Shown here one piece after another: positions 5,374 to 20,431 of a DNA stretch of 36,148 nt. The stretch comes from an uncultured Pseudomonadota bacterium (lineage in GTDB: Bacteria; Myxococcota_A; UBA796; SXON01): NCBI GenBank assembly GCA_903921785.1, contig CAIXRH010000230.1:1-36148 (forward strand), given 5' to 3'. The notes below the pieces were generated by a model. The model saw nothing but the letters and a program-made list of their open reading frames with translations. It had not been told where the DNA came from and searched no databases. Within the stretch, counting starts at the first letter, position 1. Each line of letters begins with the position of its first letter. The position numbers and the translations under genes were made by a program.

Positions 5374-6732
5374 TCACTGCGAGCGGCTGCGCTGACGCAC
5401 GAGGAGCACCAGCTCCGCGAAGCCGTCCCCGTCGAGGTCTCCGGCGACGAAGGAGCGGCCGGCGCGCAGGAACGCCCGGTCGGCGGAGAAGCTCCAGCCC
5501 GCGACGCTGGCCCCCACGGTCCCGGAGGTCGCCCCCAGGCCGGTGAAGGCGTACACGCCGCCGACCTCGAGGGTGCCGTCCGGCGCGTCTTGTCCGGGCG
5601 CGCCGACGACGACCTCGTCCAGGCCATCGCCATCGAGGTCCGCGCACGCCACCTCGGCGCCGAAGCGTCCCCCCGGGGCTTCCCCACGGACGGTGAGTGT
5701 GGGCGTGGCGCCGTCCACCAGCGCGTCGCGACCCGGGAAGATGTACACCGCACCGTCGCCGCCTTCGGCCTCCGGCGCGCCCACCACCAGGTCTGCGCGC
5801 CCCGCGCTCACGGCGCTCCGGAGCGTGCACGTCGCGACCGCCGCGCCGAACGACTCCGCCGCGCCCGCGCTGCTGCTGCCGACGGCGTGCGCCCGTACCG
5901 TCACCTCCGGCGTGCCCGCCGCAACGCCCGCGGCGGTGTAGACCCGCACCACCCCCTCGCCGAGCCCGTCCCCGGCGCCTCTGGCGAAGGGCACACCGAC
6001 GACGAGGTCGGCGTTGGAGTCGCCGGTGAGGTCGTGGGTACAGGAGAGCGCGTCGCCGAAGCCTTCGTTGGCCTCCACACCGTTGATCGGCGCGCGGGCC
6101 GCGGCGTCGCCCGCGGCGGCGTCTACCGGGATCACGTAGACGCGCCCCCGTGGCGGGACGGACGCGAGGGCCACGGGGTCCCCCGCGCTGTCCACCAGCT
6201 CCGTGGGGTCGACCTCGAAAGGCGCGCTGGCCGCCACCTCGTGCACGCCGTCGCCGTCGAGGTCCGCGCACCCGGCGAGGGCGCTCCCGAGCCGGCCCTG
6301 GCTGATCGTCCCGTCGAAGCGCGCACTGCCGCCGACGCGCAGCAAAGCGCCTGCCGCCGCGAGCTCGGGCCCGGCGTTGGCCTCCGGGGCCGCCACGAAA
6401 ACCGTGGTGCCCTCGGCCGCGACGGCCCCCCCGAACCGCTCGGTGAGGTTGCCCGACGCGAGGACTTCCCCGCCTGCGGCGTCGTTGCCGTCGAGCACGT
6501 AGCGTCGGACCTCCCCCGCCGCCGGCACCCCGGCGATCACCGCGCCTTCTCCCACCGCCAGCGCCCAGTCGTGCCCGTCGGCCGTCGCCCCTTCCACGAC
6601 CACGGCGCCGTCGCGCGGGTCGTAGGCGCCGGGCGCGAGGGTGGCGCCGTCGAAACGGACGAGGTCGGCCGAAGGAAAGCTGGCGCCCGCTTCGTTGGCG
6701 ACGCAGGCGGCGAGGGCGGCGAACATCCACAC
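5374..6732 (-). CDS. FG-GAP repeat (beta-propeller) lipoprotein
   Basis: A predicted surface lipoprotein of about 452 residues. Integrin-alpha-type FG-GAP repeats are visible as ADLDGDGVHEVAASAPF, HDLTGDSNADLVVGVPFA, ADLDGDGLDEVVVGAPGQ and GDLDGDGFAELVLLV; these Asp-rich loops usually bind calcium. Less clear blades precede them. The start is taken as GTG at 6732 (MWMFAALAAC, lipid Cys10). ATG at 6726 gives an even shorter signal peptide. The open frame runs to 6885, but its extra residues are Arg/Pro-rich. A TACGCT box sits exactly 6 nt before the GTG and there is no Shine-Dalgarno, so the mRNA may be leaderless. It is divergent from the small lipoprotein and AEC carrier. Role inferred as adhesion or matrix scaffold. 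Confidence 0.75.
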   Translation of the reverse strand: MWMFAALAACVANEAGASFPSADLVRFDGATLAPGAYDPRDGAVVVEGATADGHDWALAVGEGAVIAGVPAAGEVRRYVLDGNDAAGGEVLASGNLTERFGGAVAAEGTTVFVAAPEANAGPELAAAGALLRVGGSARFDGTISQGRLGSALAGCADLDGDGVHEVAASAPFEVDPTELVDSAGDPVALASVPPRGRVYVIPVDAAAGDAAARAPINGVEANEGFGDALSCTHDLTGDSNADLVVGVPFARGAGDGLGEGVVRVYTAAGVAAGTPEVTVRAHAVGSSSAGAAESFGAAVATCTLRSAVSAGRADLVVGAPEAEGGDGAVYIFPGRDALVDGATPTLTVRGEAPGGRFGAEVACADLDGDGLDEVVVGAPGQDAPDGTLEVGGVYAFTGLGATSGTVGASVAGWSFSADRAFLRAGRSFVAGDLDGDGFAELVLLVRQRSRSQ

Positions 6733-6738
6733 GCGCAG

Positions 6739-6744
6739 AGCGTA
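6739..6744 (-). promoter_or_regulatory. Putative -10 box, leaderless FG-GAP gene
   Basis: On the minus strand TACGCT is followed by 6 nt and then GTG TGG ATG. A start of transcription 6-7 nt after a -10 box would fall on the start codon. No convincing -35 hexamer is visible. Confidence 0.35.
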
Positions 6745-6829
6745 GCGCGCTGGGGGGCCACCATCCGGCCTGCGACGGGGCGCAGCACGGCTGGCGCTGC
6801 CGCCGGGAGCGCGCGATAGGCGCCCGGTG

Positions 6830-6919
6830 ATGCTCCTCGGCCTCCTCGCCGCCTGCGCCACGAGGCCGTCGTCGGCCCCCGACACCGGCGCGCTGACCGG
6901 CCCCCGGCCCCCCCGATGA
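6830..6919 (+). CDS. Very small predicted lipoprotein (29 residues)
   Basis: ATG at 6830 opens a 29-codon frame that reads MLLGLLAAC and then ATRPSSAPDTG, ending PRPPR with TGA at 6917-6919. A hydrophobic run, an LAAC lipobox (Cys9) and a PDTG linker copy the N-termini of the larger lipoproteins in this window. The stop overlaps the ATG of the AEC carrier (ATGA), which suggests translational coupling. It may be a real tiny lipoprotein, a leader peptide for the carrier, or the remnant of a longer lipoprotein. A GTG codon lies directly upstream in frame. No Shine-Dalgarno is evident. Confidence 0.45.
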   Translation: MLLGLLAACATRPSSAPDTGALTGPRPPR

Positions 6920-7788
6920 GCGCCCTGCTCCTCGTGGCCCTCTGCCTCGGCGCGGGCGTGGTGGCCCGGCGGTTCCTCGAGCCGGCGGCGCTCTCCGGCT
7001 ACGTGCTCTACGTCGCCCTACCGGCGTTGGCGGTGGGGAAGCTCCACCAGCTCGGGAGCGTGCCCTGGCTCGGGGTCGGCTGTGTGTGGCTGGTCTTCGG
7101 CGGGGCGTGGGGCGGCTACACGCTCGCCGGCCGCGCCTTCGGCCTCTCCCGCGCCACGGTGGCATGCCTCGTCTTGCTCACCGGCCTCTGCAACACCTCC
7201 TTCCTCGGCTTTCCGCTCCTCGAGGCCCTGGTCGGTCCCCAGGCGATCCCGCTCGCCCTGCCGCTGGACCAGCTCGGCTCCTTCCTCCTCACCTGCACCC
7301 TCGCCCCGCTCGTCGTCGCCCACGCCCGCGGCGCCGGGCTCGAGCTGCGCGCGCCGCTGGGTGCGATCCTCCGGTTCCCCGGCTTCTGGGCGATGCTCCT
7401 CGGCCTCGCCCTGCGCGGCGTCGCGGTGCCCGAGGCGATCGACGGCGCGCTGGACCGCATCGGCGCCACCCTCTCGCCGGTGGCCCTCGTGGCCGTGGGG
7501 GCGCAGCTCGCCTGGCCGCGCGCCCGGGACGCCGGGCTGGTTGCGGTCGGGCTCGGCTACAAGCTGCTGATCGCCCCCGCGCTGGTGCTCGGCGTGCTCA
7601 TGCTCGCCGAGCAGCCGCACGACGCGACCTTCCGGGTGACGCTCCTGGAGTGCGCGATGGCCCCGATGGTGACGGGCGCCATGCTCGCCGTGCGCGCCGA
7701 CCTCCGCCCCGACCTCGCGCAAACGCTCCTCGCGGTGGGGATGCCGCTCTCGCTGGCGACGGTCTGGGCGTGGGCCCAGCTCGGATAA
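6916..7788 (+). CDS. AEC-family (auxin efflux carrier type) transporter
   Basis: A 290-residue integral membrane protein with about 10 hydrophobic segments. CNTSFLGFPLLEALVG (residues about 94-109) matches the NTGFLG-type signature of bacterial AEC permeases, and the C-terminal half carries CAMAPMVTGAMLA. Family members export or exchange organic acids such as malate or malonate; the substrate here is unknown. Its ATG overlaps the stop of the 29-codon lipoprotein. Its TAA is 3 bp from the convergent stop of the MopE/FG-GAP gene, leaving no room for a separate terminator. Confidence 0.82.
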   Translation: MSALLLVALCLGAGVVARRFLEPAALSGYVLYVALPALAVGKLHQLGSVPWLGVGCVWLVFGGAWGGYTLAGRAFGLSRATVACLVLLTGLCNTSFLGFPLLEALVGPQAIPLALPLDQLGSFLLTCTLAPLVVAHARGAGLELRAPLGAILRFPGFWAMLLGLALRGVAVPEAIDGALDRIGATLSPVALVAVGAQLAWPRARDAGLVAVGLGYKLLIAPALVLGVLMLAEQPHDATFRVTLLECAMAPMVTGAMLAVRADLRPDLAQTLLAVGMPLSLATVWAWAQLG

Positions 7789-7791
7789 TCC

Positions 7792-9831
7792 CTACTCCAC
7801 CTCGTGCATCACGTACACCGCGCCCGCGCCCGCGCCGCCGGTGGCTTGGTAGGGCGCGCCGAGGATGAGCTCAACGGCGCCGTCGCCGTCCACGTCGCCG
7901 GTGGCGAGGCCGACCCCGAGGTTGTCGCCGGCGGCCTCGGCGTAGAAGGCGGCGTCGCCGTCGGAGAAGACGTAGGTGCCGGGGGCGGGGTTGGCGAAGA
8001 GGAAGGCGGCGCCCGCGTTCTTGCCGACGGTCGGGTCCCCCTGGGCGCCGAGGAGTAGCTCCTGGACCCCGTCGCCGTCGAGGTCGCCGAGGGCCACGCC
8101 GCCGCCGTACTGGCCGGCGGTGTCGCCGCGGAAGGTGAGGTCGGCGTGGGAGAGGTCGCTGTCGGCGTTGGCGGGGCCGAGCACGACGAAGGCGGCGCCC
8201 GCGGTCGTGGCGAGCGTGTCGTCGTACGAGCTGGCGACGATGTCCGCGAGGCCGTCGCCGTCGAGGTCGCCGGTGGCGAGCCAGAGGCCGGCGTAGCCGT
8301 TGGCGGTGGCGCCGGAGTAACGACCGTCGGCGCCCGAGAGGTCGAGGGTGCCGGGCAGGGGGGAGCTCACGACGTAGAAGCCGCCGGACGCGGGAGCATC
8401 CATCGTGCCCAGGCAGGCGACGACGAGGTCGCCCAAGCCGTCGCCGTCGAGGTCGGCGCCGCCGCTCACGGTGCGTCCGGCGTACACCGAGCCGGACTCG
8501 CCGGTGAGGGTGACGTCGGCGTCGGTGTCGAGCACGAGGTCCCCGGTCAGCGGGCCATACGCCACGAAGGTGAGCCCTCGCCGGTCGGAGGTGTAGTAGG
8601 CGCCGACGACGGCGTCCGCGACGCCGTCGTCGTTGAGGTCGCCGCTGAGGTCGGAGCCATGGCCTCCGTAGGTGTTCGTGGGCGCGAGCAGGTGCGCGAC
8701 GGACGCCTCGCCCAGGGAACGATCCGCCGTGACCGGTCCGAACGCCACGTAGAGCCCGCTCTCCGCGCCGTCGTAGGGCGCGCCGACGCCCACGTCGAGG
8801 GCGCCGTCGCCGTCGACGTCGCCGAGGGAGAGCGAGCGGCCGGCACCCGCGCCGGCTTCGGCGCCGGTGAGGCGGGCACCGACGGACTGGGCCACGCTGT
8901 CGCCGGTGAGCGGTCCGGGGAGCACGAAGGCGCCGCCGAGCTTGCTGTCGGCGAGGAACGTCGCGGCCACCACGTCCTCCTGACCGTCGCCGGTGACGTC
9001 GCCCACCCGCACGATGCGGCCGAGGTCGGTGGCCGCTTCGTCGCTGTAGATGCGCGCGCTCGCGTCCGCCACGCTGCTCACGCCGGAGTAGCCGCAGGTG
9101 GGATCCACGGTGTCGCAGTCGGCGTCGACCCCGTCGCCGCAGGCGTCGTCCGCGCCGGGGAAGACCGCGTCGTCTGCGTCGTCGCAGTCGTCGCCGGTGG
9201 CGGCCCAGCCGAGCCCCGGGTCGCACGCCGTGAGGGGAACGGCGGGGTCGCCGTGACCGTCGTGATCGACGTCCGCATAGCCGGGGGACTCGTGGCCGAG
9301 GTCGGCGACACCGTCGCAGTCGTCGTCTTCGCCATTACAGGCCTCCACCGCGCCAGGATGGACCGCGCTGTCGCCATCGTCGCAGTCCGTGGCGTCCGCC
9401 ACGGTGCCCGACGGCAGCGCGCACACGGCCTGACCCGTGGCCGGATTGCCGAAGCTGTCGCCATCTGCGTCCGCGTACGCGATGACGCCGTCGGTGCGCG
9501 CGTCGCCGTCGCAGTCTTCGTCGCGGCCGGTGCACGTCTCCACGCCGCCGGGGTGTACGGCGGGGTCCATGTCGTTGCAGTCGGTGGCGTCTGCCACGTA
9601 CCCGTTCGGGGCGGCGCAGGCCGAGATCACGGCCGCGGGGTCGCCGTAGCCGTCCATGTCCGCGTCGAGCGCCCAATCGGCAAACACTCCACTGTCGGGA
9701 CAGGTCGCGACAGCGGAAATGTTTGGCCGCGCTGCGGTGTCGGGAGCGGGGGTGGCGCAGCCGGCGGCGAGGAGCAGCGCGAGCGTGGTGACGACCGAAA
9801 CACGGCGCCGAAGCTGGGGAGCGGGGGTCAC
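7792..9831 (-). CDS. MopE-motif and seven-blade FG-GAP lipoprotein
   Basis: A 679-residue predicted surface lipoprotein. The signal peptide MTPAPQLRRR...LALLLAAGC has Cys25 as lipid site. About residues 45-260 hold MopE-type metal-binding repeats (DADMDGYGD, DATDCNDMDPAVHPG, DEDCDG, DADGDSFGN, DVDHDGHGD), known from copper-binding or otherwise Asp-rich secreted proteins of Methylococcus and myxobacteria. They are followed by seven FG-GAP blades: GDVTGDGQED, GDVDGDGALD, GDLNDDGVAD, ADLDGDGLGD, GDLDGDGLAD, GDLDGDGVQE and GDVDGDGAVE, the number expected for one closed propeller. GTG 9831 is preferred over the longer frame to 9942 because it gives an Arg-containing n-region and a proper lipobox. 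Role: calcium-stabilised adhesin or matrix protein (inference). Confidence 0.8.
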   Translation of the reverse strand: MTPAPQLRRRVSVVTTLALLLAAGCATPAPDTAARPNISAVATCPDSGVFADWALDADMDGYGDPAAVISACAAPNGYVADATDCNDMDPAVHPGGVETCTGRDEDCDGDARTDGVIAYADADGDSFGNPATGQAVCALPSGTVADATDCDDGDSAVHPGAVEACNGEDDDCDGVADLGHESPGYADVDHDGHGDPAVPLTACDPGLGWAATGDDCDDADDAVFPGADDACGDGVDADCDTVDPTCGYSGVSSVADASARIYSDEAATDLGRIVRVGDVTGDGQEDVVAATFLADSKLGGAFVLPGPLTGDSVAQSVGARLTGAEAGAGAGRSLSLGDVDGDGALDVGVGAPYDGAESGLYVAFGPVTADRSLGEASVAHLLAPTNTYGGHGSDLSGDLNDDGVADAVVGAYYTSDRRGLTFVAYGPLTGDLVLDTDADVTLTGESGSVYAGRTVSGGADLDGDGLGDLVVACLGTMDAPASGGFYVVSSPLPGTLDLSGADGRYSGATANGYAGLWLATGDLDGDGLADIVASSYDDTLATTAGAAFVVLGPANADSDLSHADLTFRGDTAGQYGGGVALGDLDGDGVQELLLGAQGDPTVGKNAGAAFLFANPAPGTYVFSDGDAAFYAEAAGDNLGVGLATGDVDGDGAVELILGAPYQATGGAGAGAVYVMHEVE

Positions 9832-9876
9832 CGGGGACCCGTAACGCGCGGTGGCCGGCGAGCGCGCGGCGGCGCC

Positions 9877-9930
9877 GCGATTGGCAGCCAACCCACGCCG
9901 CCGCCACGCGGACCGTGATCCGCCAATCGC
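9877..9930. promoter_or_regulatory. 9-bp inverted repeat upstream of MopE/FG-GAP gene
   Basis: GCGATTGGC (9877-9885) and GCCAATCGC (9922-9930) are perfect inverse copies separated by 36 nt, in the 126-nt gap between the GGDEF stop and the MopE/FG-GAP start. It could be an operator pair or a transcript hairpin closing the GGDEF gene. The segment ATCGCCCAGATG next to it recurs at 22484-22495. Confidence 0.35.
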
Positions 9931-9957
9931 CCAGATGAACATCCACTCTCCGAAGGA

Positions 9958-11583
9958 TCAGTCGGCGGCGGTCGGCGCCCCGTCCATCGGCGCTACCACC
10001 ACCCGCGCGCGCCCGGCGTGTTTGGCGCTGTAGAGCGCCTGATCCGCGAGTTGCAGGAGCGAGGCCACCTGGAGCTCTCCCGTGGGGTCCGCCGCGATGC
10101 CCACCGAGATCGTGAGGTTCACCGAGACCCCACCGGCCGCGAACGGCGCCTCGGCCACCACTCGGGCGAGGCGCTCCCCCAGCGATTGCGCGTGCATGGC
10201 GGGGGTGTTCGGCATCGTGACGCAGAACTCCTCGCCACCCCAGCGCGCCACCGAGTCGCTTCCTCGGAGGCATCGCTGAAGTCGCGACGCCAGCTCCACG
10301 AGGACGGCGTCCCCGACGGCGTGACCGAAACGGTCGTTCACCGTCTTGAAATGATCGACGTCGACCAGGGCCAGGGCGAGCGCCGGCGCCCGGTCGAGCC
10401 CGTCGAGCACCGCTTGCTGGTGGCGGCGGTTGGGGAGCCCGGTGAGCACGTCGGTGCGCGCCAGCGCTTCGAGCTGGCCCTGAAGCAACTCCCGCTGGGC
10501 CAACGCGGCGGCGAGCTCCTCGTTGAGCCTCTGCAACTCCGTGGACCGTACGCGCTCGCGAGCCGCCTCCCGGCGCATTGTCTCCGCCTCCAGCCGCAGC
10601 TCCGCGACCCGCACCCGATCGGCGACGTGCGCCGCCGCCTCCGTGCCGCGGGTGCCGAGGTGGGCCCAGAGCGCCTGGAGCGCGCCGGCGGCGTCCCCCA
10701 TGCCCTCGCGAGCTTGCGCGAGGTACTGGAGACAGTTGGCCTCGATGGAGCCAAAGGCCCGGGCCCGGGCGGCAGCGAGGCAGGCCTCCAGTCGGTCGGC
10801 CGCCGCGTCGAACCGGCCGATCTCCACGAGGTGCCGCCCGATGATGAACTGGTGGCGCGTGTGCTGCCAGACGTCCCCGAGGCGGGTGAGGATGCGGAGG
10901 CTCTCTTCGTAGGACGCCAGCCCGTCGTCCACCCGCCCTTCCTGGATGAGCACCCCGCCGAACCCGGCGTGGTAGAGCGCGTGGCCGTTGGGCCAGTCCA
11001 GCGCGAGGGCGAGCGGCAGCCCCTCTTCGTAGCAGGAGCGGGCTTCCGCGGTCCGTCCGGCGCGCTGCAGGGCGCCGCCGAGGTTGCAGAGGGCGTGGGC
11101 GATGAGCCGCGGCTCGCCGACTTCCCGCAGCAGCTCCAGCGCCCGACGCGTGTAGCGCTCGTAGGGGCCCGGCTCGTCGTGCTCCCCGTAGAGAAACCCG
11201 AGGTTCGCCGTAAAGGTTGCCTCCTGCCGGAGCTCGCCCAGGTGATGCGCGAGGTCGGCCGCGTCGTGCCAGGCGCGCGCGGCCCGGGCGACGTCCCCGA
11301 GGTGGGTGTAGGCGACGGCCAGGGCCGAGCGCGCGGGGAGGTCCAGGGAAGGATCGGGCTCGGCGGCGAGGTGATTCACGCCTCGCTCAAGGAGCACCGC
11401 GGCCTCCGTCGTGGCGCCGAGGGCATCCCACACCACGCCGGCGAGCACCTCTTCCCAGGCGGTCGCCCCGGTCGGCCCCAGGAGCGCAGGGTCGTCCCGA
11501 ACCCGGTCTGGCGCGGTGGAGACGATCGCCCGCACCAGCGCGACCGCCAGCTCCCGCTCCGCGCGCTTCGGTGCGCTCTCCAC
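9958..11583 (-). CDS. TPR-GGDEF diguanylate cyclase
   Basis: A 541-residue soluble protein. Residues about 85-310 are tetratricopeptide-type helical repeats (for example ALCNLGGALQRAGRTAEARSCYEEGL and AGFGGVLIQEGRVDDGLASYEESL-like units). Residues 320-372 form a coiled coil. Residues about 374-535 are a GGDEF domain with DVDHFKTVNDRFGH (metal Asp), RWGGEEF (catalytic GGEEF 449-453) and the RGSD inhibitory I-site (440-443), five residues before GGEEF. It should make c-di-GMP with product feedback; the TPR part presumably senses a partner protein. No signal peptide or membrane helix is seen. The annotated GTG is the first usual start in the frame, yet the frame stays open and partly coding-like for about 60 codons upstream with only CTG candidates, so the N-terminus is uncertain. 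Confidence 0.88.
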   Translation of the reverse strand: MESAPKRAERELAVALVRAIVSTAPDRVRDDPALLGPTGATAWEEVLAGVVWDALGATTEAAVLLERGVNHLAAEPDPSLDLPARSALAVAYTHLGDVARAARAWHDAADLAHHLGELRQEATFTANLGFLYGEHDEPGPYERYTRRALELLREVGEPRLIAHALCNLGGALQRAGRTAEARSCYEEGLPLALALDWPNGHALYHAGFGGVLIQEGRVDDGLASYEESLRILTRLGDVWQHTRHQFIIGRHLVEIGRFDAAADRLEACLAAARARAFGSIEANCLQYLAQAREGMGDAAGALQALWAHLGTRGTEAAAHVADRVRVAELRLEAETMRREAARERVRSTELQRLNEELAAALAQRELLQGQLEALARTDVLTGLPNRRHQQAVLDGLDRAPALALALVDVDHFKTVNDRFGHAVGDAVLVELASRLQRCLRGSDSVARWGGEEFCVTMPNTPAMHAQSLGERLARVVAEAPFAAGGVSVNLTISVGIAADPTGELQVASLLQLADQALYSAKHAGRARVVVAPMDGAPTAAD

Positions 11584-11781
11584 CTCCGCGGCTTCCCTTA
11601 CGATTCGAGCGAGCTCGGTCCGAACGGCCGGGGCATTTGCGGACAGATGGGTCGCCAGATCGGACCAGACCGGGCCCAGGATGCGAAGAACGTACTTCGG
11701 AAGCTCGGGAGTCTTGGCGGGCGGGGGCGTCAGCGGAGGGGCGGGGAGGGGCGCGCGCGCGCTCTATCCGGGTGGGGCGGG

Positions 11782-11803
11782 GGTGTCGCGTGGGGGCGAC
11801 ACC
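11782..11803 (-). terminator. Stem-loop at GST stop
   Basis: GGTGTCGC (11782-11789) pairs perfectly with GCGACACC (11796-11803) around GTGGGG, and the stem touches the GST stop codon. Position and strength suggest 3'-end formation for the GST message. A GC-rich run, not a U tract, follows. The rest of 11584-11781 holds a small CGAAG/CTTCG inverted repeat (11684-11699) and no other recognised gene. Confidence 0.5.
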
Positions 11804-12519
11804 TACCCATCCAGCTCCGGATACCGCCGGAAGATCCCATGCTCGTTGAACGCCTGCCTCCGCGGCGACAGGAGGTACGCGGCGATGTTCGGCAACGCCG
11901 CGACCCGCTGACGCAGCACCTGAAGCTCCGCCGGGACCTCCCGGGCGTAGGCCAGCGGAAATGCGTAGTCCAAACCGGACAGCACCTGGAACAGCGACAG
12001 GTCCACGTAGCCGCGGGTGGCCCCGAGCAGCCACGGCCCGCCGCTCGCGGCGAGCACCCGCCGGAAGTAGCTGAAGAAGGCGGGCATCCGCTCGGTGCGG
12101 AACTGAGCGGCCTTCACCGCCGCCGCCTCCCGTTGCTCCTCGTAGTATTTGCCGATCGCCAGCGGGTGGTGAGTGTCGTGGGCCTCCGCCACAAGGTCCA
12201 TCACCGTGAGCTGGAGCTGCACGGCGTGGGCGCGGGCTTCGGGGTCGGCGGGGACGAGCCCGTGCCGCTCGCCGATCCACGCGCAGATCGCCGCGGTCTG
12301 CGCGAGCACGAGGTCGCCCACCTGGAGAATCGGGGGTGCGAAGGGAGGGATTCCTCCCAGCGCGCCCTTGCGCGCCGCGACCACCGCGCCCGCGCCGCCG
12401 CCCTCCGACGCCGGCAGTCGGCCCACGTCCACGTAGGGGGCGCCCGCTTCTTCGAGGGCGAGACGGACGAATTCGCCACGACCGGGAAGGCCGGGCCAGT
12501 AGTAGAGGCGGTAGGGCAT
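11803..12519 (-). CDS. Glutathione S-transferase family protein
   Basis: A 238-residue cytosolic enzyme. The N-terminal thioredoxin fold reads MPYRLYYWPGLPGRGEFVRLA, with Tyr6/7 as candidate catalytic Tyr; PILQVGDLVLAQTAAICAWI carries the cis-Pro (P63-type) and the glutathione gamma-glutamyl site (Q-T/S). The C-terminal all-helical domain contains YVDLSLFQVL, the N-capping region. The GRGEFVRLALEEAG and Tyr pattern resembles sigma/alpha/pi-type GSTs. It may detoxify electrophiles or isomerise metabolites; the partner substrate is unknown. ATG at 12519 matches the usual family start. No Shine-Dalgarno is visible, but a TACTGT box lies 20 nt upstream. Confidence 0.85.
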   Translation of the reverse strand: MPYRLYYWPGLPGRGEFVRLALEEAGAPYVDVGRLPASEGGGAGAVVAARKGALGGIPPFAPPILQVGDLVLAQTAAICAWIGERHGLVPADPEARAHAVQLQLTVMDLVAEAHDTHHPLAIGKYYEEQREAAAVKAAQFRTERMPAFFSYFRRVLAASGGPWLLGATRGYVDLSLFQVLSGLDYAFPLAYAREVPAELQVLRQRVAALPNIAAYLLSPRRQAFNEHGIFRRYPELDG

Positions 12520-12539
12520 GGGGCGCTCGGGGGGGGACG

Positions 12540-13300: not shown

Positions 13301-13544
13301 GGGAGGCTCCGGTTGGCAGCCGAAACTGCAAGCCCCATGCCATCGCGGGAGAACGTGCTGAACTCGCGGAGGGGGCGGGGGCGGCAGGGCGCGGGTGCCG
13401 TGGGCAGGGCCTGGGGCGAGGCCGAGGGCCATGACCAGGGAGCGGCGCGGGTGCCCCGCCTTGCCCACCGGCCGACGTCGGCGGTCGAGGAGCCGCGGTC
13501 GGCGAGAAGGGCGGGGCGGGCGGGGCGCGCCACGGCGGCGCCGC

Positions 13545-13600
13545 GCCGACGCCTGTCGTGGCTCGCGACGGTGCTGCCGAGACGGGAGGGGGGACAAAAA
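13545..13600 (+). repeat. Dispersed intergenic repeat, copy A
   Basis: It reads GCCGACG, then TGTCGTGGCTCGCGACGGT, then CTGC, then CGGGAGGGGGGAC, then an A run. Copies B (15768-15853, plus) and C (22484-22580, minus) share the same order of blocks. A and B lie in the same orientation on either side of the three-gene Ig/HEAT/metzincin group. It may be a mobile non-autonomous element or a conserved RNA/protein target. Confidence 0.5.
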
Positions 13601-13611
13601 GCCCCCTTCCG
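13583..13611 (-). terminator. Stem-loop after metzincin gene
   Basis: Positions 13583-13592 pair with 13602-13611 (10 bp, one G-T) around a loop with five A on the plus strand. It starts 11 nt past the metzincin stop on the minus strand. It overlaps the end of repeat copy A. Confidence 0.45.
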
Positions 13612-13622
13612 CCTCGCGAAGC

Positions 13623-14738
13623 TCAGTCCGGGATGGTGATCGGGTTGCGCGCCACCACCCAGCCCTGATCGGCCGAGAAGGTGGTCGCGGTGCCGACCTG
13701 AGCGGTCGGCCACATCACGTTCTCCGCGCCGCTGCCGGCGCACTCGGCGCTGGTGAGCGCGCCGTCGCCGTCGGAGTCGCTGCACTCGGGGGTGTCGTCG
13801 AGCGGGTCCACCCCGGTGAGGTCCTTCTCGGTGGGGTGGAACAACCCCAGGAAGTGCCCGCCTTCGTGCGCCATGATGAGCGCGATCTCGTCCGGAGAGG
13901 CGTCGAGGTCGGCTGCGTTGATGACCACGCCCGACTTCGAGGTGCCCCCGTAGCCGGCGACGCCCGGGGGGCCGCCGGAGAGGCCGAGGATCGAGGCGCC
14001 GTCGCCGAGATCGATGTCCTGCACGAAGAAGAACGTGAGCTCGGGGCCGTCGCTCGCGGTGCGGAGCAGGTCGCCGAACTCTTCGGCGCCCTCGATGGTG
14101 GTGTAGGTGTCGGTGGCGCCGTCGAAGTCGGTGTAACGGACGTTCCCCACGGCCAACCCGAGGTCGGACCAGAGGTCGTCGAGCGTGGTGAGCGCCGACT
14201 GCAGCCCCTCATGACCGGCGCCGCTCTGGGCGTTGAGGCCGGCGGAGAGGCCGTCGACCCCCACGAAGACGAGGTTCACGTCCACCGTGTTGGTGGCCGC
14301 GGTGTCGCCGATGCGGTTGATCGCCGCGCAGCTCACGGTGGTGGGCAGGTCGGAGGCCGAGATGTACAGCCCGAGCGTCCAGGTTCCGGCGGCCGCCTCG
14401 AGGTTCGGCGACACGGGCACCAGCACCGGGAGCGTGTCGTCGAGCACGCTCACGCGGAGCCCGCCGGAGGAGGGCGCGTCGTCGTCGTACACCGCGGAGC
14501 CGCTGGCGTCGGTGACGTCGTCCGCCGTGGCGAGCGTGTCGTAGCCGTAGGGCCCGCAGAAGACCTCGCTGCTCACGACGCCCTCGGGCATGTCCCAGGG
14601 CACATCGACCAGGCCATCGGCGTCGGTCTTGAAGGGGCCGAGGTCCTCGTAGCTGAGGTTCTCGGCGTTCTGTCCGGTGCCGCTGTCGCAGCCGGCGAGG
14701 AGGAGGGCGAGCGTGGCCCCGACCAGGAGGCGGCTCAC
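13623..14738 (-). CDS. Metzincin-type zinc protease lipoprotein
   Basis: A 371-residue predicted lipoprotein. Signal peptide MSRLLVGATLALLLAGC gives lipid Cys17. A beta-rich N-terminal half runs to about 150. The catalytic region contains HEGGHFLGLFH (His291, Glu292, His295, His301), an exact HExxHxxGxxH zinc site, and NVMW with Met342 as probable Met-turn. These are the hallmarks of metzincins such as the pappalysin and matrixin groups. A DSDGDGALTS calcium-like loop (321-330) lies between the helix and the Met-turn. It probably cleaves extracellular protein while tethered to the membrane. It starts with GTG overlapping the stop of the HEAT gene (GTGA), so the pair is translationally coupled. 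Confidence 0.82.
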   Translation of the reverse strand: MSRLLVGATLALLLAGCDSGTGQNAENLSYEDLGPFKTDADGLVDVPWDMPEGVVSSEVFCGPYGYDTLATADDVTDASGSAVYDDDAPSSGGLRVSVLDDTLPVLVPVSPNLEAAAGTWTLGLYISASDLPTTVSCAAINRIGDTAATNTVDVNLVFVGVDGLSAGLNAQSGAGHEGLQSALTTLDDLWSDLGLAVGNVRYTDFDGATDTYTTIEGAEEFGDLLRTASDGPELTFFFVQDIDLGDGASILGLSGGPPGVAGYGGTSKSGVVINAADLDASPDEIALIMAHEGGHFLGLFHPTEKDLTGVDPLDDTPECSDSDGDGALTSAECAGSGAENVMWPTAQVGTATTFSADQGWVVARNPITIPD

Positions 14739-15286
14739 GGCTTCACCCCCTTCTTCAGCACGGCGAGGACGTTGGTGTCGGTCTCCACGGCGGCGCGCGC
14801 CTGGATCGCGGCGGTGGCGGACGGGTCCTTCACCTTCACCAGCGCGCGGGCGGCGGAGAGGCGCAGGTTACTGTCGGCGTCCGCGAGGGCGACCGAGAGC
14901 TCGGGCACCGCCGCCGCGCCCCAGCCGTGGCCGAGGCCGGCGCAGGCCTTCCGGCGGAGCAGCACGGGCGTCGAGTGATCGGCCAGGGTGGTGCTCAGGA
15001 AGGTGTGCGCGGCGTCGCTGGGGAAGAAGCCGAGGGCGACGAGGGCGTTGCCCCGCTGGGTGGGCACGCCTGCCGGATCTTTCGCGATCGTCACGAGCTC
15101 GGCCTCGGCCTCGGGGCCGAGCGCCTTCCACTCGGCGGCAGTGGCCGGCTTCTCCATCCCGGAGAGCAGCTCCACGACCTTCTGGTGGAGCGTGGTGGCG
15201 GCGGGAGCGGCGAGGGTCGTAGGGGCGGCAGAGGCGGCCGTCGCCGGGGCGCCTGCGAGCGCCAGGGACGTGAGGAGGAGGAACAT
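14735..15286 (-). CDS. Exported HEAT-repeat protein
   Basis: A 183-residue protein with signal peptide MFLLLTSLALAGAPA followed by an Ala/Thr/Pro segment. Residues about 45-183 are HEAT-like helical hairpins (RGNALVALGFFPSDAAHTFL, LLRRKACAGLGHGWGAAAVPEL, NLRLSAARALVKVKDPSATA). Such solenoids usually bind other proteins; no catalytic motif is seen. It is the middle gene of the Ig-like/HEAT/metzincin group: it starts 10 nt after the Ig-like lipoprotein stop, with GGAG seven nt before its ATG, and its stop overlaps the metzincin start. A scaffold, chaperone or inhibitor role for the protease is a reasonable guess only. Confidence 0.7.
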   Translation of the reverse strand: MFLLLTSLALAGAPATAASAAPTTLAAPAATTLHQKVVELLSGMEKPATAAEWKALGPEAEAELVTIAKDPAGVPTQRGNALVALGFFPSDAAHTFLSTTLADHSTPVLLRRKACAGLGHGWGAAAVPELSVALADADSNLRLSAARALVKVKDPSATAAIQARAAVETDTNVLAVLKKGVKP

Positions 15287-15296
15287 TCGCGCTCCG

Positions 15297-15710
15297 TTAT
15301 CCGGTGATGCGGTTGGGGGTGAAGGTGACGGGGACGGGGATGCTGGCTGGCTCGCCGTCGGTGTCGATCTCGAAGGAGGTGGAGACGTCGGTCCCTTCGG
15401 TCCCTGGCGGGTAACCGCACAGCCCCACGGTGAAGACGTAGGCGCTTCCCGGGTGGACCACGTCCAGGTCTACCGGGAACTCCTGCGTGGTGAACCCGGC
15501 GATGCAGAACACGTCGGGGTCGGGCTCGGGGAGGCTGAGGTTGCCGTCCGTCTCGCCGGTGTTGGTGACGTGCAGCTCCATCTGGGCGTAGCCGCCCTCG
15601 GGCATCTGGTCGGCGGAGGGGAAGTCCACCGGGCCGAAGTCGAGGCTCTCGGGGGTGAGGGAGAACGACACCGTCTCGGTGCCGCAGCCGAAGGCGAACA
15701 GCAGCAACAT
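15297..15710 (-). CDS. Small lipoprotein with ASH/DUF1573-like Ig domain
   Basis: A 137-residue predicted lipoprotein, MLLLFAFGC with lipid Cys9. The rest is one Ig-like sandwich of the ASH/DUF1573 kind: SLTPESLDFGPVDF followed by MELHVTNTGETDGNLSL is the usual first-strands signature. It has paired cysteines (FCIAGF, GLCGYP). The frame extends to 15854, but those extra 48 residues are Pro/Arg-rich and cover repeat copy B, so I start at the ATG at 15710. A TACACT box ends exactly 6 nt before this ATG with no Shine-Dalgarno, suggesting a leaderless mRNA that then runs through the HEAT and metzincin genes. Confidence 0.7.
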   Translation of the reverse strand: MLLLFAFGCGTETVSFSLTPESLDFGPVDFPSADQMPEGGYAQMELHVTNTGETDGNLSLPEPDPDVFCIAGFTTQEFPVDLDVVHPGSAYVFTVGLCGYPPGTEGTDVSTSFEIDTDGEPASIPVPVTFTPNRITG

Positions 15711-15716
15711 CCGCGT

Positions 15717-15722
15717 AGTGTA
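15717..15722 (-). promoter_or_regulatory. Putative -10 box, leaderless Ig-like lipoprotein
   Basis: On the minus strand TACACT, then ACGCGG, then ATG. The context GCGCTACACT resembles GCGCTACGCT before the FG-GAP gene. Confidence 0.4.
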
Positions 15723-15767
15723 GCGCGGTGGTGGGCGCCCCGGCGACGCGTCTGGCCCGGGGGAGCG

Positions 15768-15853
15768 GCCCGGAGGAAAGCCGACGCGGGTCGTGGCTCG
15801 CGAGGGTGGAGGAGGGCCGAGAGGGGGGACCCACCCCGAGATCCTGGGCGTCA
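15768..15853 (+). repeat. Dispersed intergenic repeat, copy B
   Basis: It begins GCCCGGAGG, then GCCGACGCGGGTCGTGGCTC, GCGAGGGT, GAGAGGGGGGACCCA and ends ATCCTGGGCG. Copy C has the same block order, including the starting GCCCGGAGG and an ending ATCTGGGCG. It lies 60-140 nt upstream of the Ig-like lipoprotein gene. Confidence 0.5.
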
Positions 15854-16087
15854 TACCGACCCGCCGTGTTCACCGCTCGTCCGGCGAGGACGCGGCGCCG
15901 GGGGGGCGGGCTTCCCGGCGTCGCGAGTTGCACCACTGTCGCCTCGGTGAACGTGAGGGTTGGCGCTGGGTCCTGCCGCCACGAGCGCCCGGCCCTCGCT
16001 GCGCTCGGCCGGTTCGCCCGTGACGTCACCCGCACCGTCGCCTCACCCTGAACCGTCGGCGAACAAGGACGAGGTTTTCACTCGCCG

Positions 16088-16104
16088 CCGGGAGGCCCGG
16101 TTTT
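16088..16104 (+). terminator. Orphan intrinsic-terminator-like hairpin
   Basis: CCGGG, AGG, CCCGG and then TTTT on the plus strand is a compact terminator shape. No plus-strand gene lies upstream, so it is either fortuitous or ends a small RNA. Confidence 0.3.
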
Positions 16105-16171
16105 GCTTGCTGCACGGACTCGCTCCGCGTCGGCGCGACGGGGGAGCGATCCTCATCCGTCATGGACCGTA

Positions 16172-16618
16172 TCAGCCGGCGCCGTCCACCACTCCATGCA
16201 CCACCAGCGGCAGCGACTCGTGGCCGTCGATGTCGGTGACGATGAACGCGAAGTCGTAGGTCCCGACGGCGATCGTGTCACACTCCAGGTCGGGGCCGTC
16301 CTGGTCCTTCCAGCTCCCGTTGCAGGTGCCGCCGGCGCAGACGAGCGCTTCCTCGCCGAGGTCGCCGCGGGCGTCGCTCACTTCGATCCTCGCCATCGTC
16401 TCCACGGTGTCGCTGCCCTGCTTGTCGGAGACGGTCGCCGCGGCGGTCCACTGGATGTAGTGGTCGCCGGTGGTGTGCTCGTAGCAGGTGACCTGCGCGG
16501 AGGTGACGACGGGGGCGTCGGGGTCGACGACGACGGCGGTGTCGGCGCTGTCGCCGCTGTCGGGGGCGGTGCCGCACCCGCCGAGGGCGAGGGCGGCGAT
16601 CAGTTGCAGGTGTTGCAC
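16172..16618 (-). CDS. Small predicted lipoprotein
   Basis: A 148-residue protein starting with GTG as MQHLQLIAALALGGCG (lipid Cys15), then a SGDSADT linker. The remainder looks like one Ig/beta-sandwich domain: YIQWTAAATVSDKQG and TYDFAFIVTDIDGHESLPL, with three inner cysteines (CYEH, VCAGGTC, LEC). The function is unknown. The start lies 19 nt inside the end of the beta-helix lipoprotein gene in another frame, so it is almost certainly its downstream operon partner. The long frame upstream to 16876 is a shadow of the beta-helix gene. Confidence 0.62.
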   Translation of the reverse strand: MQHLQLIAALALGGCGTAPDSGDSADTAVVVDPDAPVVTSAQVTCYEHTTGDHYIQWTAAATVSDKQGSDTVETMARIEVSDARGDLGEEALVCAGGTCNGSWKDQDGPDLECDTIAVGTYDFAFIVTDIDGHESLPLVVHGVVDGAG

Positions 16619-18309
16619 GGTCCCAGTCCGTTGTTCGCGTAGGTCACGTCGGTGAGGTCCGGCGCGCTGTCGCCGTTGAGGTAGAGACCCCACTCCTCGC
16701 CGTCGTGGAGGTACACGGTGTCGAGCACCGGGGACGCGTCCACGAGGTGGAGGTTGCCCTTGAGCGTGGTTCCACCGGCGTAGCCGATGGTGAGGTGGGA
16801 GAGCCGCGACCCGCCCGCCACCGTGTTCTCGTAGAGCCCCAGGCCGCCCCACGCGCCTGGGGTGTTGGCCGACCACGGCTCCATCGTGACCGGCGCCGCC
16901 GCCGTGCCGTCCACCACGAAGCCCGCCGCGCCGTTGCGGCCCACGTAGAGGCCGACGTTGTTGTCGAGGAGGAGGTCCACCCCCGCGGACAGCGTGACGA
17001 TGGCCGGGGCGTCAGCCTTGCCGTCGACCGCCACGTCGTCCACCAGCCAGTAGGGGACGCCGGGGTCGGGCCAGGTGCCGGACTCGGACACCGCGGCGTC
17101 GCCGGAGACCTGCACGGCGTTCACGGTGTTGCCGGTGAAGCTCGCGCCTGTCGTGGGGAGCGACGGCACCGAAGCGGGCGGCAGCACCACCGGGAGGCCG
17201 CTGTCGCTCACCGCGAGGCCGGCGCTGCCGGTGGCGAAGACCGCGGACCCCCGCAGCTCCACGCCCGCCCCGGCGGACCCGGTGATGGAGAGGTCGTCCA
17301 GCAAGACCGGCGTGTCGTTGACGGTGAGCGCCGCGCCGGCGCCGCCCGCCCCGGAGATCACCACTTGGCTGAGCAAGACCTCGTCCGCCCCCCGGTCGAC
17401 CTCGAGGCCGTGCCAGTACCCGGCGATGTCGGCGCCGAGGGCGTCGAAGGTGACGGGCGCGTCGACCGAGCCGGTCGCCACGAGCTGCGACGCGTCGCCG
17501 AGGCGGGAGAAGCGCAGCGCGCGGTCCCGCTCGAAGCGTACGGTCGTGCCCTCGGTGAAGGTGAGCACGGCGGGGGCGTCGGCCGTGCCCGCGACGTCCA
17601 CGTTCTCGGCGATCACGTAGGGAACCCCCAGGTTCTCCCAGGTGGCGGCCTCGTTGAGCTGGCTGCCGGTGAGGTACACGCCGTCCGAGGCGTTGCCGGT
17701 GTAGCGGCTGGCCGACGCGGGCAAGGACGCAGCGCTCCGTACCTCCCCGCATACTCCCCAGCTCGCGGCGCCGGTCACGGTGAGGCCGGTGGCGCCGTCG
17801 GCGAACTGTGCGCCTTCATCCATCGTGAGCCCGCAGCCCTCCGAAGCGCCGTCGATCGACAGGCTCCCAAGGGTGACCTCTGCGCCCACGATCCGCACCC
17901 CCGCCGTGGTTCCCTTCACTGAGAGTCCGGAGATCGCCACGTTCTTGGCGGTGTCCCCGACGGTGATGCCGTCCCAGGTGAAGTCGCCGTCGGGGCTGAA
18001 GACCACGCCGGAGGAGCTGCCGTCCACCACGAAGGAGGCTTCGTAGTCGGCGGTGCCGATGGAGAGGCCGGTGTTCTCCGCGAACGTCACCGACGCGCCG
18101 GGCTCCACGGTGAGGGTCCCCTGCTCCACTTCCACGTCGCAGGTGACGAGGTGCGCGCGCTTGGCCTTCCACGTCTCATCGGCGGTGATGGCGCCGCAGT
18201 GTTCGAGCGGGGGGAGCTCTCCGGTGTCCTCGACGGCCGTGTCTTCGTCGGGGATGTCGGGGATCTTCGAGTCGATCGGGCCGCAGGCGCCGAGGAGCAG
18301 CAGGAACAT
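16600..18309 (-). CDS. Parallel beta-helix lipoprotein with three internal modules
   Basis: A 569-residue predicted lipoprotein, MFLLLLGACG with lipid Cys9 and an acidic DEDTAVEDTG linker. Three related modules begin near Trp47, Trp224 and Trp413. Each has a W...GVPY-type strand, a V-V-G-ADAPA turn, and later an APVTF...W-GL motif (about 285-302 and 473-490). The many short G/N/T turns between V/L/I strands are typical of right-handed beta-helix (pectate-lyase-like) proteins. I see no catalytic residues of a known lyase, so a surface binding protein is likelier. It starts 7 nt after the upstream lipoprotein stop without a Shine-Dalgarno, so coupling is likely. It ends CNTCN, overlapping the next start by 19 nt. 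Confidence 0.7.
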   Translation of the reverse strand: MFLLLLGACGPIDSKIPDIPDEDTAVEDTGELPPLEHCGAITADETWKAKRAHLVTCDVEVEQGTLTVEPGASVTFAENTGLSIGTADYEASFVVDGSSSGVVFSPDGDFTWDGITVGDTAKNVAISGLSVKGTTAGVRIVGAEVTLGSLSIDGASEGCGLTMDEGAQFADGATGLTVTGAASWGVCGEVRSAASLPASASRYTGNASDGVYLTGSQLNEAATWENLGVPYVIAENVDVAGTADAPAVLTFTEGTTVRFERDRALRFSRLGDASQLVATGSVDAPVTFDALGADIAGYWHGLEVDRGADEVLLSQVVISGAGGAGAALTVNDTPVLLDDLSITGSAGAGVELRGSAVFATGSAGLAVSDSGLPVVLPPASVPSLPTTGASFTGNTVNAVQVSGDAAVSESGTWPDPGVPYWLVDDVAVDGKADAPAIVTLSAGVDLLLDNNVGLYVGRNGAAGFVVDGTAAAPVTMEPWSANTPGAWGGLGLYENTVAGGSRLSHLTIGYAGGTTLKGNLHLVDASPVLDTVYLHDGEEWGLYLNGDSAPDLTDVTYANNGLGPCNTCN

Positions 18310-18316
18310 GGCGGCA

Positions 18317-19579
18317 TCATAGCCGGTCGCGGCGACGCCGCCCGAGCAGCAGCACCAGCCCGGCCCAGCCGAGCGGAAGCGCGCCAGAGACGACGCTGCA
18401 CGTCGGGTCCCCGCCCGTGGTGACCTCGGCGGCCGAGAGCCCCGGGATTGCCGGGGCCGCGATGTCCTCGACCTGCACGGCCACGCAGTAGGGGCTGCCG
18501 TCGGGGCACGCGGTGCAGGTGTCGCCGAAGCTCGCGATCAGGTCGCAGATGGCGCTGTCGGGGCCGCTGGGGTCCATGAGCGGGGCGAGCGGGGCGGTGT
18601 CCAACGCGCCGGTGATCGTCACGTGGGACAGCTCGTCCCCCGAGGGGGCGAACGTGCCGCTCACCGTCGGCGCGAAGAAGGTGGTGGACGCGCCCATGAG
18701 CTCCACGGTGAGGTCGCTGGCCGTGGCGGTGAAGGCGGGGTCCGCCGAGAAGTCCGCGCCGACCACGTCCACGGTGTTCGTCGCGAGGTCCTGCGCGAGC
18801 GTGGTCGGGTCCACCGCGCCGAAGCGGAGGTCGATCGTGCCGCCACCCTCGCCGGTGACGCCGATGAGGAGGTCGCTGGTGAGGTAGCTCGCCATGAGGC
18901 TGCCGGTGCCGGCGGGCTCCGTCCACGTCGCGGTGGCGAGCTGCCCGTCGTAGGCCTGGTCCACCAGGGCGGCAGGGTCCGCCACAGCCGAGCCGTACGT
19001 GCTGGTGGTGAAGGTGGTGCTCTCGATGCCCCAGCACCCGCTCACCGACACCGTGTACGTCGTGCTGCTCGCGAGCGCCGGGCTGGGCGTGAAGGTGACG
19101 ATGTTCCCGGCGATCGAGCTGCTCCCTGGGACGGTGGTGACGATGGTGGCCGTCGCGTCCGGGCGCATGAGGGTGAACGCGACGTCGTCCTGGTACCAGA
19201 CGTCGGTGGCGCCGTCGCGGGGCACCACCCTGCGGACGGAGTTGCGACACGGGGGCGTGCTGGTGTCGAACGTCGGCGAGTCCCCGGAGTCCACCCATCC
19301 GGAGTCGCTGGTGTCGGGGGTGCCGGTGTCCTTGCCGGTGTCGGCGGTGTCCTTGCCGGTGTCGGCCGTGTCCTTGCCGGTGTCGGCCGTGTCCTTGCCG
19401 GTGTCCTTGCCGGTGTCGGTGTCGGCGGTGTCGGTGCTGGTGTCGCGCCCGCTGTCCTTGCCGGTGTCCGCGGTGTCGCCTGCGCCAGTGTCGTGCCCGC
19501 CGGACGGGGTGCTGGTGTCGATGGGCGGGGTTGCGCAGGCGAGGGCGAGGATCGGGGCGAGAGGGAGCAGGAGGCGCAT
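18317..19579 (-). CDS. Asp/Thr-repeat lipoprotein with MYXO-CTERM-like tail
   Basis: A 420-residue protein starting MRLLLPLAPILALAC (lipid Cys15). Residues about 25-105 are an Asp/Thr/Gly/Lys linker made of DTADTGK repeats. An Ig-like domain of the Big_5/SbsA kind follows (RRVVPRDGATDVWYQDDVAF ... GNIVTFTPSPALASSTTYTV), then a beta-rich region. The C-terminus has CSVVSG, a hydrophobic stretch GALPLGWAGLVLLLG and RRRR, resembling MYXO-CTERM sorting tails. Having both a lipobox and such a tail is odd. A TATCGT box lies exactly 6 nt before the ATG; AAGGAG is 12 nt away, too far for a good ribosome site. It leads the operon with the beta-helix and small lipoprotein genes. Confidence 0.7.
   Translation of the reverse strand: MRLLLPLAPILALACATPPIDTSTPSGGHDTGAGDTADTGKDSGRDTSTDTADTDTGKDTGKDTADTGKDTADTGKDTADTGKDTGTPDTSDSGWVDSGDSPTFDTSTPPCRNSVRRVVPRDGATDVWYQDDVAFTLMRPDATATIVTTVPGSSSIAGNIVTFTPSPALASSTTYTVSVSGCWGIESTTFTTSTYGSAVADPAALVDQAYDGQLATATWTEPAGTGSLMASYLTSDLLIGVTGEGGGTIDLRFGAVDPTTLAQDLATNTVDVVGADFSADPAFTATASDLTVELMGASTTFFAPTVSGTFAPSGDELSHVTITGALDTAPLAPLMDPSGPDSAICDLIASFGDTCTACPDGSPYCVAVQVEDIAAPAIPGLSAAEVTTGGDPTCSVVSGALPLGWAGLVLLLGRRRRDRL
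19326..19412 (-). repeat. 21-bp tandem repeat coding DTADTGK
   Basis: Three near-identical 21-bp units start at 19326, 19347 and 19368 (GTGTCCTTGCCGGTGTCGGC plus one base) and continue in truncated form. They encode the flexible linker of the lipoprotein. Such in-frame repeats can expand or shrink by slippage. Confidence 0.8.
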
Positions 19580-19585
19580 GGACGC

Positions 19586-19591
19586 ACGATA
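19586..19591 (-). promoter_or_regulatory. Putative -10 box, leaderless lipoprotein operon
   Basis: Minus strand TATCGT, then GCGTCC, then ATG. The upstream 25 nt (about 19592-19620) are unusually AT-rich for this window, as expected of a promoter. Confidence 0.4.
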
Positions 19592-19638
19592 CTCCTTTTC
19601 ATGGATTTGGAGCTAGAAAGTCGGGCCCGCGTTCGCGC

Positions 19639-20418
19639 TCAACACCCCCCGCCCGCCGCCACCTCCACGTCGGTCCCCTTCTGGGTGACGTGCACGTAGG
19701 AGCTGCACCCTAGCGGGAACTCCCAGCCCCGCATCCCCTCGGAGACCAGCATGCTCACCTCGCCGTCGTCGGTGTGCAGCGTGGGCGACGGTCCCGAGGC
19801 GGTGGGCAGGCCCTCGTTGCTGAAGTCCAACTCGGTCTTCATGCACTGCCGGGCCGCGGCCCACACGGCGTCCGAGGTGGTGTTGGGGATGTGGATGGTG
19901 TCGGAGCCCCACTCGTAGCCGGCGTTGGTCTCGAGCCAGGCCTGGCCGTTGAGCGGCGTGCGCTTGGTCGTGTCGCAGTCGCCCTCCATCTCCACGCCCA
20001 TCGTGCTGCACGCCTGCTTGGCGATCACCGTCTCCGGCCCCGCGAAGCCGATGGCGAGCGCCCACGCGCTCAGGTTGGGGCAGTCGACCGGCGGCGGCGG
20101 CACGGGCAGCAGGAACCCGTCGAAGGCGTAGCCGGACTGGCCCGCGTACCACACCGGCGCCCAGCCGCCACGGATGTTCGACGCCACCTCGCTCCCGGTC
20201 GACGCCCCGGTGACGATCACCGTGGCGCCGCGCGGCACCTCCGCCAGCGTGGCCGCCGCGGTGCTCGGGCTGGCGCGCAGCTTCAGCGTGCTCGCCGAGA
20301 CGACGTAGCGGGGCTGGCCCGCGGGCGGAGTGTTTGGATCGACGCCCGTTTCCGGGAGACCGCAGCAGAGGCCGCCGGCGATGACGAAGGCGGCGGCGAG
20401 GGTGAGGCGGGGGAGCAT
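19639..20418 (-). CDS. Exported SH3b-domain protein
   Basis: A 259-residue protein with signal peptide MLPRLTLAAAFVIAGGLCCG. The twin Cys do not form a standard lipobox, so lipidation is uncertain. Residues about 38-103 are a bacterial SH3 domain: YVVSASTLKLRASPSTAAAT, then VPRGATVIV and WAPVWYAGQSGYAFDGFL. The second half has six or more cysteines (DCPNLS, KQACST, GDCDT, RQCMK, LGCSS and the final GGGC), suggesting a disulfide-rich domain of unknown fold. SH3b domains usually bind cell-wall peptides or other proteins. It is divergent from pyrD, and TAGACT sits 7 nt before its ATG with no Shine-Dalgarno. Confidence 0.72.
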   Translation of the reverse strand: MLPRLTLAAAFVIAGGLCCGLPETGVDPNTPPAGQPRYVVSASTLKLRASPSTAAATLAEVPRGATVIVTGASTGSEVASNIRGGWAPVWYAGQSGYAFDGFLLPVPPPPVDCPNLSAWALAIGFAGPETVIAKQACSTMGVEMEGDCDTTKRTPLNGQAWLETNAGYEWGSDTIHIPNTTSDAVWAAARQCMKTELDFSNEGLPTASGPSPTLHTDDGEVSMLVSEGMRGWEFPLGCSSYVHVTQKGTDVEVAAGGGC

Positions 20419-20425
20419 GCGGCGC

Positions 20426-20431
20426 AGTCTA
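20426..20431 (-). promoter_or_regulatory. Putative -10 box, leaderless SH3b gene
   Basis: Minus strand TAGACT, then GCGCCGC (7 nt), then ATG. It lies in the 46-nt gap to the pyrD start. Confidence 0.35.

Follow-up and report, generated by a model that had tools for sequence, protein, structure and literature searches.

The stretch of DNA analysed here (the window; 36,148 nucleotides (nt), contig C230) is part of the 7.48 Mb genome of an uncultured bacterium, assembled in 362 contigs and 96% complete. Several of its genes are preceded by a TANNNT hexamer, here called a box, that stands 6 or 7 nt ahead of the start codon, where a -10 promoter element would yield a leaderless messenger RNA (mRNA) that begins at the start codon itself. 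An earlier inspection of the letters (the sequence-only reading) had named four such boxes on the minus strand, ahead of the start codons at 6732, 15710, 19579 and 20418, and all four are present with the spacings that it gave. A fifth, ahead of the ATG at 18309 on the same strand, had been overlooked. The boxes and their genes are as follows.

5374-6732, minus strand: gene for an FG-GAP repeat protein with a short lipoprotein-type signal (VWMFAALAAC)
6739-6744, minus strand: TACGCT, putative -10-type box in the GnTA form, 6 nt ahead of GTG 6732
9838-9843, minus strand: weaker box TACGGG (GTTACGGG), TA at -12 of GTG 9831
15297-15710, minus strand: small lipoprotein-type gene (MLLLFAFGC) with orthologues throughout the family
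15717-15722, minus strand: TACACT box, 6 nt ahead of ATG 15710, conserved in the genus with a moving start codon
16600-18309, minus strand: lipoprotein-type gene (MFLLLLGAC)
18316-18321, minus strand: TATGAT box, 6 nt ahead of ATG 18309, overlapping the upstream gene's stop codon
18317-19579, minus strand: lipoprotein-type gene with a Big_5 domain
19586-19591, minus strand: TATCGT box, 6 nt ahead of ATG 19579
19639-20418, minus strand: lipoprotein-type gene with an SH3_3 domain
20426-20431, minus strand: TAGACT box, 7 nt ahead of ATG 20418, at 6 nt in orthologues

The genes with these boxes were also said to lack a Shine-Dalgarno motif at normal distance, and this holds; the gene at 19579 has AAAAGGAG just 5' of its box, but at 12 nt from the ATG the motif is too far away for normal use. 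The three weaker cases, 9831, 26824 (GATAACCC) and thiD at 26848 (GTTATCCC), each have GnTA at -12 or -13. Such an arrangement is rare by chance, as had been supposed: TANNNT lies at 6-7 nt in 5 of the 29 genes in the window against an expectation of 0.11 (P ~9e-8), which was derived from how often TANNNT occurs at distant positions in the part of the genome sample outside the window.

This gene-level sample consisted of 61 stretches with 842,665 bases (0.84 Mb, 11% of the genome), in which a home-made gene finder placed the start codons of 649 called genes. A genome-wide histogram of the distance between TANNNT and the start codon had been named beforehand as the test, and it shows a sharp peak at 6 nt. 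The peak appears even when raw codons are counted without gene calls: ATG is preceded by TANNNT 47 times at 6 nt and 24 times at 7 nt, compared with about 10 at other distances, and GTG 36 times at 6 nt compared with about 21 elsewhere, while raw TTG and CTG codons in the same bases show no peak. Among the called genes, 44 of 649 carry TANNNT at 6 nt (~1.2 expected), and 40 of the 620 outside the window do so (P ~1e-46); only one of 169 annotated Escherichia coli starts, used as a negative control, has it. When the pattern GNTANNNTN6ATG was counted in the whole genome, 249 occurrences were found against 36 for the reversed pattern that served as control. The excess is similar in most genomes of the family and patchy across the phylum.

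The shape of the signal resembles that of a promoter element. TA stands at -12 in 92 of the 649 genes (background ~7), of which 68 also have G at -14, so that the usual form is GnTAnnnT, and T is the most frequent base at -7. C is favoured at -1 ahead of the purine start, and no TTGAC was found at -35 spacing in an alignment of 162 promoters. The box works like an extended -10 element with G at -14 and no -35, but it is not classed with the classical TGn type, as T occurs at -15 at a frequency of only 0.09-0.14. Given this layout, the start site would coincide with the start codon's first base. From the excess of TA at -14 to -11, the leaderless share is estimated at about 22% of the genes in this genome and at 12-22% in sampled relatives. 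A second excess of TA, at -30 to -22 and in about 11% of genes, marks promoters with short leaders. The coexistence of this leadered class with the first had been claimed as well, and the boxes named for it ahead of 31482 and 33291 were recovered:

31452-31457, plus strand: TACCCT, leadered-class box, 24 nt ahead of ATG 31482 (radical SAM/B12 protein)
33262-33267, plus strand: TATCCT, leadered-class box, 23 nt ahead of GTG 33291, with GGAGG in between

The gene at 33291 had been called a lipoprotein, a description that we do not retain, since its frame has no lipobox cysteine near the start.

The genomic context of the boxes was examined in 1824 genes pooled from five samples. Not one of the 327 genes that overlap a same-strand upstream gene carries the box, and 41% of them have a Shine-Dalgarno motif; where the spacing to the upstream gene is different, 3-9% of genes have the box. 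In genes that possess an upstream region of their own, a Shine-Dalgarno motif accompanies 8 of 77 boxes, compared with 327 of the 816 genes without a nearby TA (P 5e-8). TTG starts are found in none of 105 boxed genes and in 54 of 1719 others.

Orthologues provide a further line of evidence. In five orthologues of the 15710 gene from the same genus (L154, L155, L158, L159 and L160), the position of the start codon varies (0, -6 or -12), and the box is always 6 nt before it; box and start codon thus move together, as the distance is kept when the start shifts. The box is also present in an orthologue from another genus (L171), and it stands 9 nt from the start in two further orthologues (L162 and L163). 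In genera g2, g4 and g6 the orthologues carry GGAG or GAGG in place of the box, and in two members of the genus (L156 and L157) neither a box nor a Shine-Dalgarno motif is clear. The three orthologues L120, L121 and L122 of the 20418 gene have their box at 6 nt. We note that across the orthologues of the 15710 lipoprotein (L154-L173) initiation appears to alternate inside one family between leaderless (genera g1 and g3) and Shine-Dalgarno (g2, g4 and g6).

Two of the weaker boxes in the window, TAACCC ahead of 26824 and TATCCC ahead of thiD at 26848, are the opposite strands of a single GGTTATCC, with 23 base pairs (bp) between the divergent start codons:

26351-26824, minus strand: uncharacterised gene without a Pfam match, left-hand gene of the shared box
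26833-26840, both strands: shared box GGTTATCC, in which TA 26836-26837 is at -12 of thiD 26848 (plus strand) and at -13 of 26824 (minus strand)
26848-27588, plus strand: thiD-type phosphomethylpyrimidine kinase (PF08543, 2.5e-74), right-hand gene of the shared box

The arrangement recurs in the family, where CAY-N8-GGTTATCC-N7-RTG was counted 19 times compared with 2 in the control. When the spacing was left free, 123 placements of GGTTATCC in 22 family genomes peaked at 7/7 nt (22 placements) and 8/7 nt (19 placements), and most spacing cells away from these hold 0-3. The near-symmetrical motif puts TA at -12 or -13 of both starts, on both strands, with the start codons 23-24 bp apart and 22-23 bp between the genes; transcription start sites are inferred. 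A looser pattern with a shared TA, CAY-N9-GNTANC-N8-RTG, showed no excess over the control, the excess being found only with the specific GGTTATCC core. Among 141 genomes of the phylum, the shared box was counted 24 times in the 8 that belong to the family (control 2) and 46 times in the other 133 (control 27), and it is therefore mainly a family trait.

Open frames flank most of the shared-box loci that we read on either side, and 18 of 43 loci in the expected class passed a strict coding threshold for which the window's genome was the training set, as did 3 of 24 outside that class. The paired genes are functionally unrelated: SerRS with EamA, DapF with NAD kinase, CoaX with a histidine phosphatase, TruB with an FAD oxidoreductase, glutathione synthetase with an AAA ATPase, a DNA polymerase III delta'-type protein with a hexapeptide protein, a glycosyltransferase with an amidohydrolase, and an FG-GAP lipoprotein beside another lipoprotein-type gene. 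In SerRS, DapF, CoaX and glutathione synthetase the Pfam domain sets in as early as residues 1-3, which fixes the start codons.

On its simplest reading, GGTTATCC looks like one two-way -10 element that gives rise to two leaderless mRNAs. We consider it probable that the motif serves the family in this way for unrelated and often essential pairs (serS, dapF/NAD kinase, coaX, truB, thiD), that both genes of a pair are leaderless, that two genes have all of their promoter and leader sequence within these 22-23 bp, and that the two initiations are mutually exclusive. A regulator's operator between divergent genes, with no shared -10 at all, is a doubtful alternative: the motif is nearly palindromic, sequence-specific and mainly confined to the family, as an operator might be, but its TA occupies, simultaneously on the two strands, the same -12/-13 positions as in single leaderless genes, and the pairs beside it share no function. 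GGTTATCC could also be operator and -10 together.

The alternatives for the boxes as a whole are less probable still. They might be ordinary -10 elements with short leaders of 3-10 nt, an only approximate spacing of 6 nt and conventional translation, and some boxes at -13 or -14 would indeed leave a leader of 1-3 nt; however, the mode is exactly -12, too near for a leader with a Shine-Dalgarno motif, and the leadered class forms its separate cluster at -30 to -22, which makes this explanation improbable. Even less credible is the view that the box is no promoter and acts in translation instead, as an AU-containing mRNA element that the ribosome reads. The distance of such an element to the start codon would be fixed, as it is here, but a ribosome signal would be expected inside operons too, and we reject it because the box is absent from all of the operon-overlapping genes, where Shine-Dalgarno motifs are common. 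The arrangement T-12 A-11 T-7, as in a -10 element, with the extended -10 G in addition, and a shared box that appears to work both ways also speak against a translation signal. Chance or a start-calling artefact in GC-rich DNA can be dismissed, for although the motif was picked after sight from few genes (four full matches as listed), the peak is evident outside the window and in the raw count without gene calls, and it is repeated in most family genomes and missing in E. coli.

A coding artefact, in which the box would be a TAN codon in frame at codon -4, was also considered and rejected: TAG and TAA are found there alongside TAC and TAT, and boxes occur at 7 nt as well.

The boxes are thus very probably sigma-70-type -10 elements that start leaderless mRNAs at about 22% of genes. 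This leaderless reading is supported, and it is consistent with every available sequence test, because the peak is sharp, the box is absent in operon overlaps, Shine-Dalgarno motifs are depleted and box and start codon shift together. Several points weigh on the other side. The transcription start sites in this uncultured organism are predicted ones, the start codons rest on a home-made gene finder, and the gene-level statistics cover 11% of the genome, although the whole-genome pattern counts agree. Moreover, eight of the 77 boxed genes also have a Shine-Dalgarno-like motif, a level near that of the control window, and no 16S rRNA gene was found in the 96% complete assembly, hence no anti-Shine-Dalgarno sequence could be read.

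The position, motif, context and conservation of the boxes can be read directly from the DNA. As for the mechanism, we infer that polymerase starts at the box, which sigma factor is involved and how ribosomes engage the transcript. GnTAnnnT would be the extended -10 element of the primary sigma-70-type RNA polymerase, acting without a conserved -35, and transcription would begin with the start codon's first base or no more than 1-2 nt away from it. Such mRNAs would have neither leader nor Shine-Dalgarno motif, and 70S ribosomes presumably bind the 5'-terminal AUG or GUG; sigma-70 recognition of the boxes and 70S translation of the transcripts are background assumptions. About a fifth of the genes would be expressed in this way, and other genes would use the same box some 11-18 nt farther upstream, with a Shine-Dalgarno motif between box and start codon. 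A single near-symmetrical GGTTATCC would act as the -10 both ways for two divergent leaderless genes, both at thiD and at several dozen placements across the family.

The sequence-only reading had tied the boxes to lipoprotein-type genes. A bias of this kind is strong in the window's genome, but it is no rule and is weaker in relatives. With a loose and crude predictor of lipoprotein-type N-termini, the box stands at 6 nt in 24 of 128 lipoprotein-type starts, compared with 20 of the 521 remaining genes (odds ratio 5.8, P 1e-7). This bias persists inside every gene-neighbourhood class. Paralogy was checked by clustering: the 128 lipoproteins fall into 105 clusters, and the cluster-weighted leaderless fraction is 15%. 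Relatives, represented by four sets, give a pooled odds ratio of 2.0 (P 0.019), and their lipoproteins do not differ from other secreted proteins in box frequency. The rule that leaderless means lipoprotein was rejected, as the bias vanishes (4 of 46) with a canonical, stricter lipobox, a filter that accepts 46 genes, where the loose one accepts 128 of 649, and leaves out the LLAC type common in this genome. The signal peptides of leaderless lipoproteins are shorter as a trend only (P 0.08), and the leaderless set also holds chaperone-like and ATPase genes, judged from their N-termini. The lipoprotein link is therefore a real bias in the window's genome and a mild bias to secreted proteins generally.

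Some lipoprotein-type signals are very short, with 6-10 residues ahead of the cysteine and without a basic n-region (MLLLLAC, MFLLLLGAC, MFALLLLAC). They occur at the window starts 2078, 6732, 15710 and 18309 and in many sampled genes, and leaderless boxes support several of these starts. A loose lipoprotein-type N-terminus in about a fifth of called genes (128 of 649) is a very high share, counted with a crude predictor.

Leaderless genes with TANNNT boxes are well described (PMC3160421, PMC12340547, PMC3898074, PMC4895711). Zheng et al. 2011 (PMC3160421) predicted them in 8 of 33 delta-proteobacterial genomes, at 5.7-20.6% (mean 15.8%), and the TA-like signal of that survey is similar to ours in having a TANNNT core some 12 bp ahead of the start codon, a high-GC genome and no Shine-Dalgarno motif. 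However, the survey has fewer leaderless genes for cellular processes and signalling, whereas in the genome studied here secreted and lipoprotein genes are enriched among the leaderless ones. In Deinococcus-Thermus, a -10 region adjacent to the open reading frame has been demonstrated experimentally to drive leaderless transcription, at about 30% of open reading frames (PMC12340547). The adjacent -10 motif and its fixed spacing are shared with our case, but that is another phylum in which transcripts were tested, while the motif described here has an upstream G and its start sites are predicted ones. About 21% of primary start sites in Streptomyces coelicolor are leaderless, with AUG preferred and with membrane genes and TetR regulators among them (PMC4895711); there, a -35 consensus accompanies the -10, in contrast to the 162 promoters aligned here, in which no -35 is detectable. 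Leaderless expression by TANNNT is thus a known mechanism in a new lineage, because it has been described elsewhere and already predicted in delta-proteobacteria.

Bidirectional promoters with a symmetrical -10 have been reported in E. coli and Salmonella, with starts 7-25 bp apart, of which 18 is commonest and 10 and 23 are also common (PMC10268837, PMC12825309). A near-symmetrical -10 usable on both strands is common to both systems, and the start codons 23-24 bp apart in our pairs may be compared with the 23 bp class in E. coli. They differ in that both mRNAs are here predicted to begin at start codons, such that the box and two spacers make up the whole intergenic region, and in that one motif, GGTTATCC, recurs; the word 'leaderless' is absent from PMC12825309. 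Among the papers listed by our literature search, outside which a main bidirectional-promoter paper lay, we found none that describes two leaderless genes paired on a single -10. A single -10 shared by two leaderless genes would be a compact twist on a known mechanism, whose novelty we regard as a probability and not as a claim.

With these boxes, sequence evidence for large-scale leaderless expression now reaches an uncultivated lake lineage of Myxococcota. The shared-box pairs are a natural example of promoter geometry and start-codon position determining one another, and they would be compact test objects for the choice of orientation by the polymerase and for the use of 5'-terminal start codons. 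GnTAnnnT at -12 can also serve as a rule that fixes start codons overlooked by gene finders, such as that of pyrD in the window.

In the region 20405-20524, pyrD probably starts at GTG 20465 and not at ATG 20417, since solved quinone-type dihydroorotate dehydrogenases align from four residues after this GTG onwards and GATAGCGG lies just 5' of it:

20454-20459, plus strand: possible box (GATAGCGG), 5 nt ahead of GTG 20465, the likelier pyrD start

With this start, the lipoprotein gene at 20418 and pyrD would be divergent across 46 bp.

The nearest named relatives of the genome are lake 'Deltaproteobacteria' metagenome-assembled genomes (MAGs). We place it in the Myxococcota because of its MYXO-CTERM sorting tags, of which 56 of 74 matches lie above the cut-off, compared with none above it in 14 control genomes. 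In four MAG records (L055, L060, L064 and L067), whose titles name Klebsiella pneumoniae or Bifidobacterium breve, there is a gene 75-81% identical to that of the lineage, and these titles look wrong. Finally, we note that a subtilase with MopE-type metal-binding motifs, encoded at 22581-24794 in the window, carries a C-terminal MYXO-CTERM sorting tag at 22584-22673.

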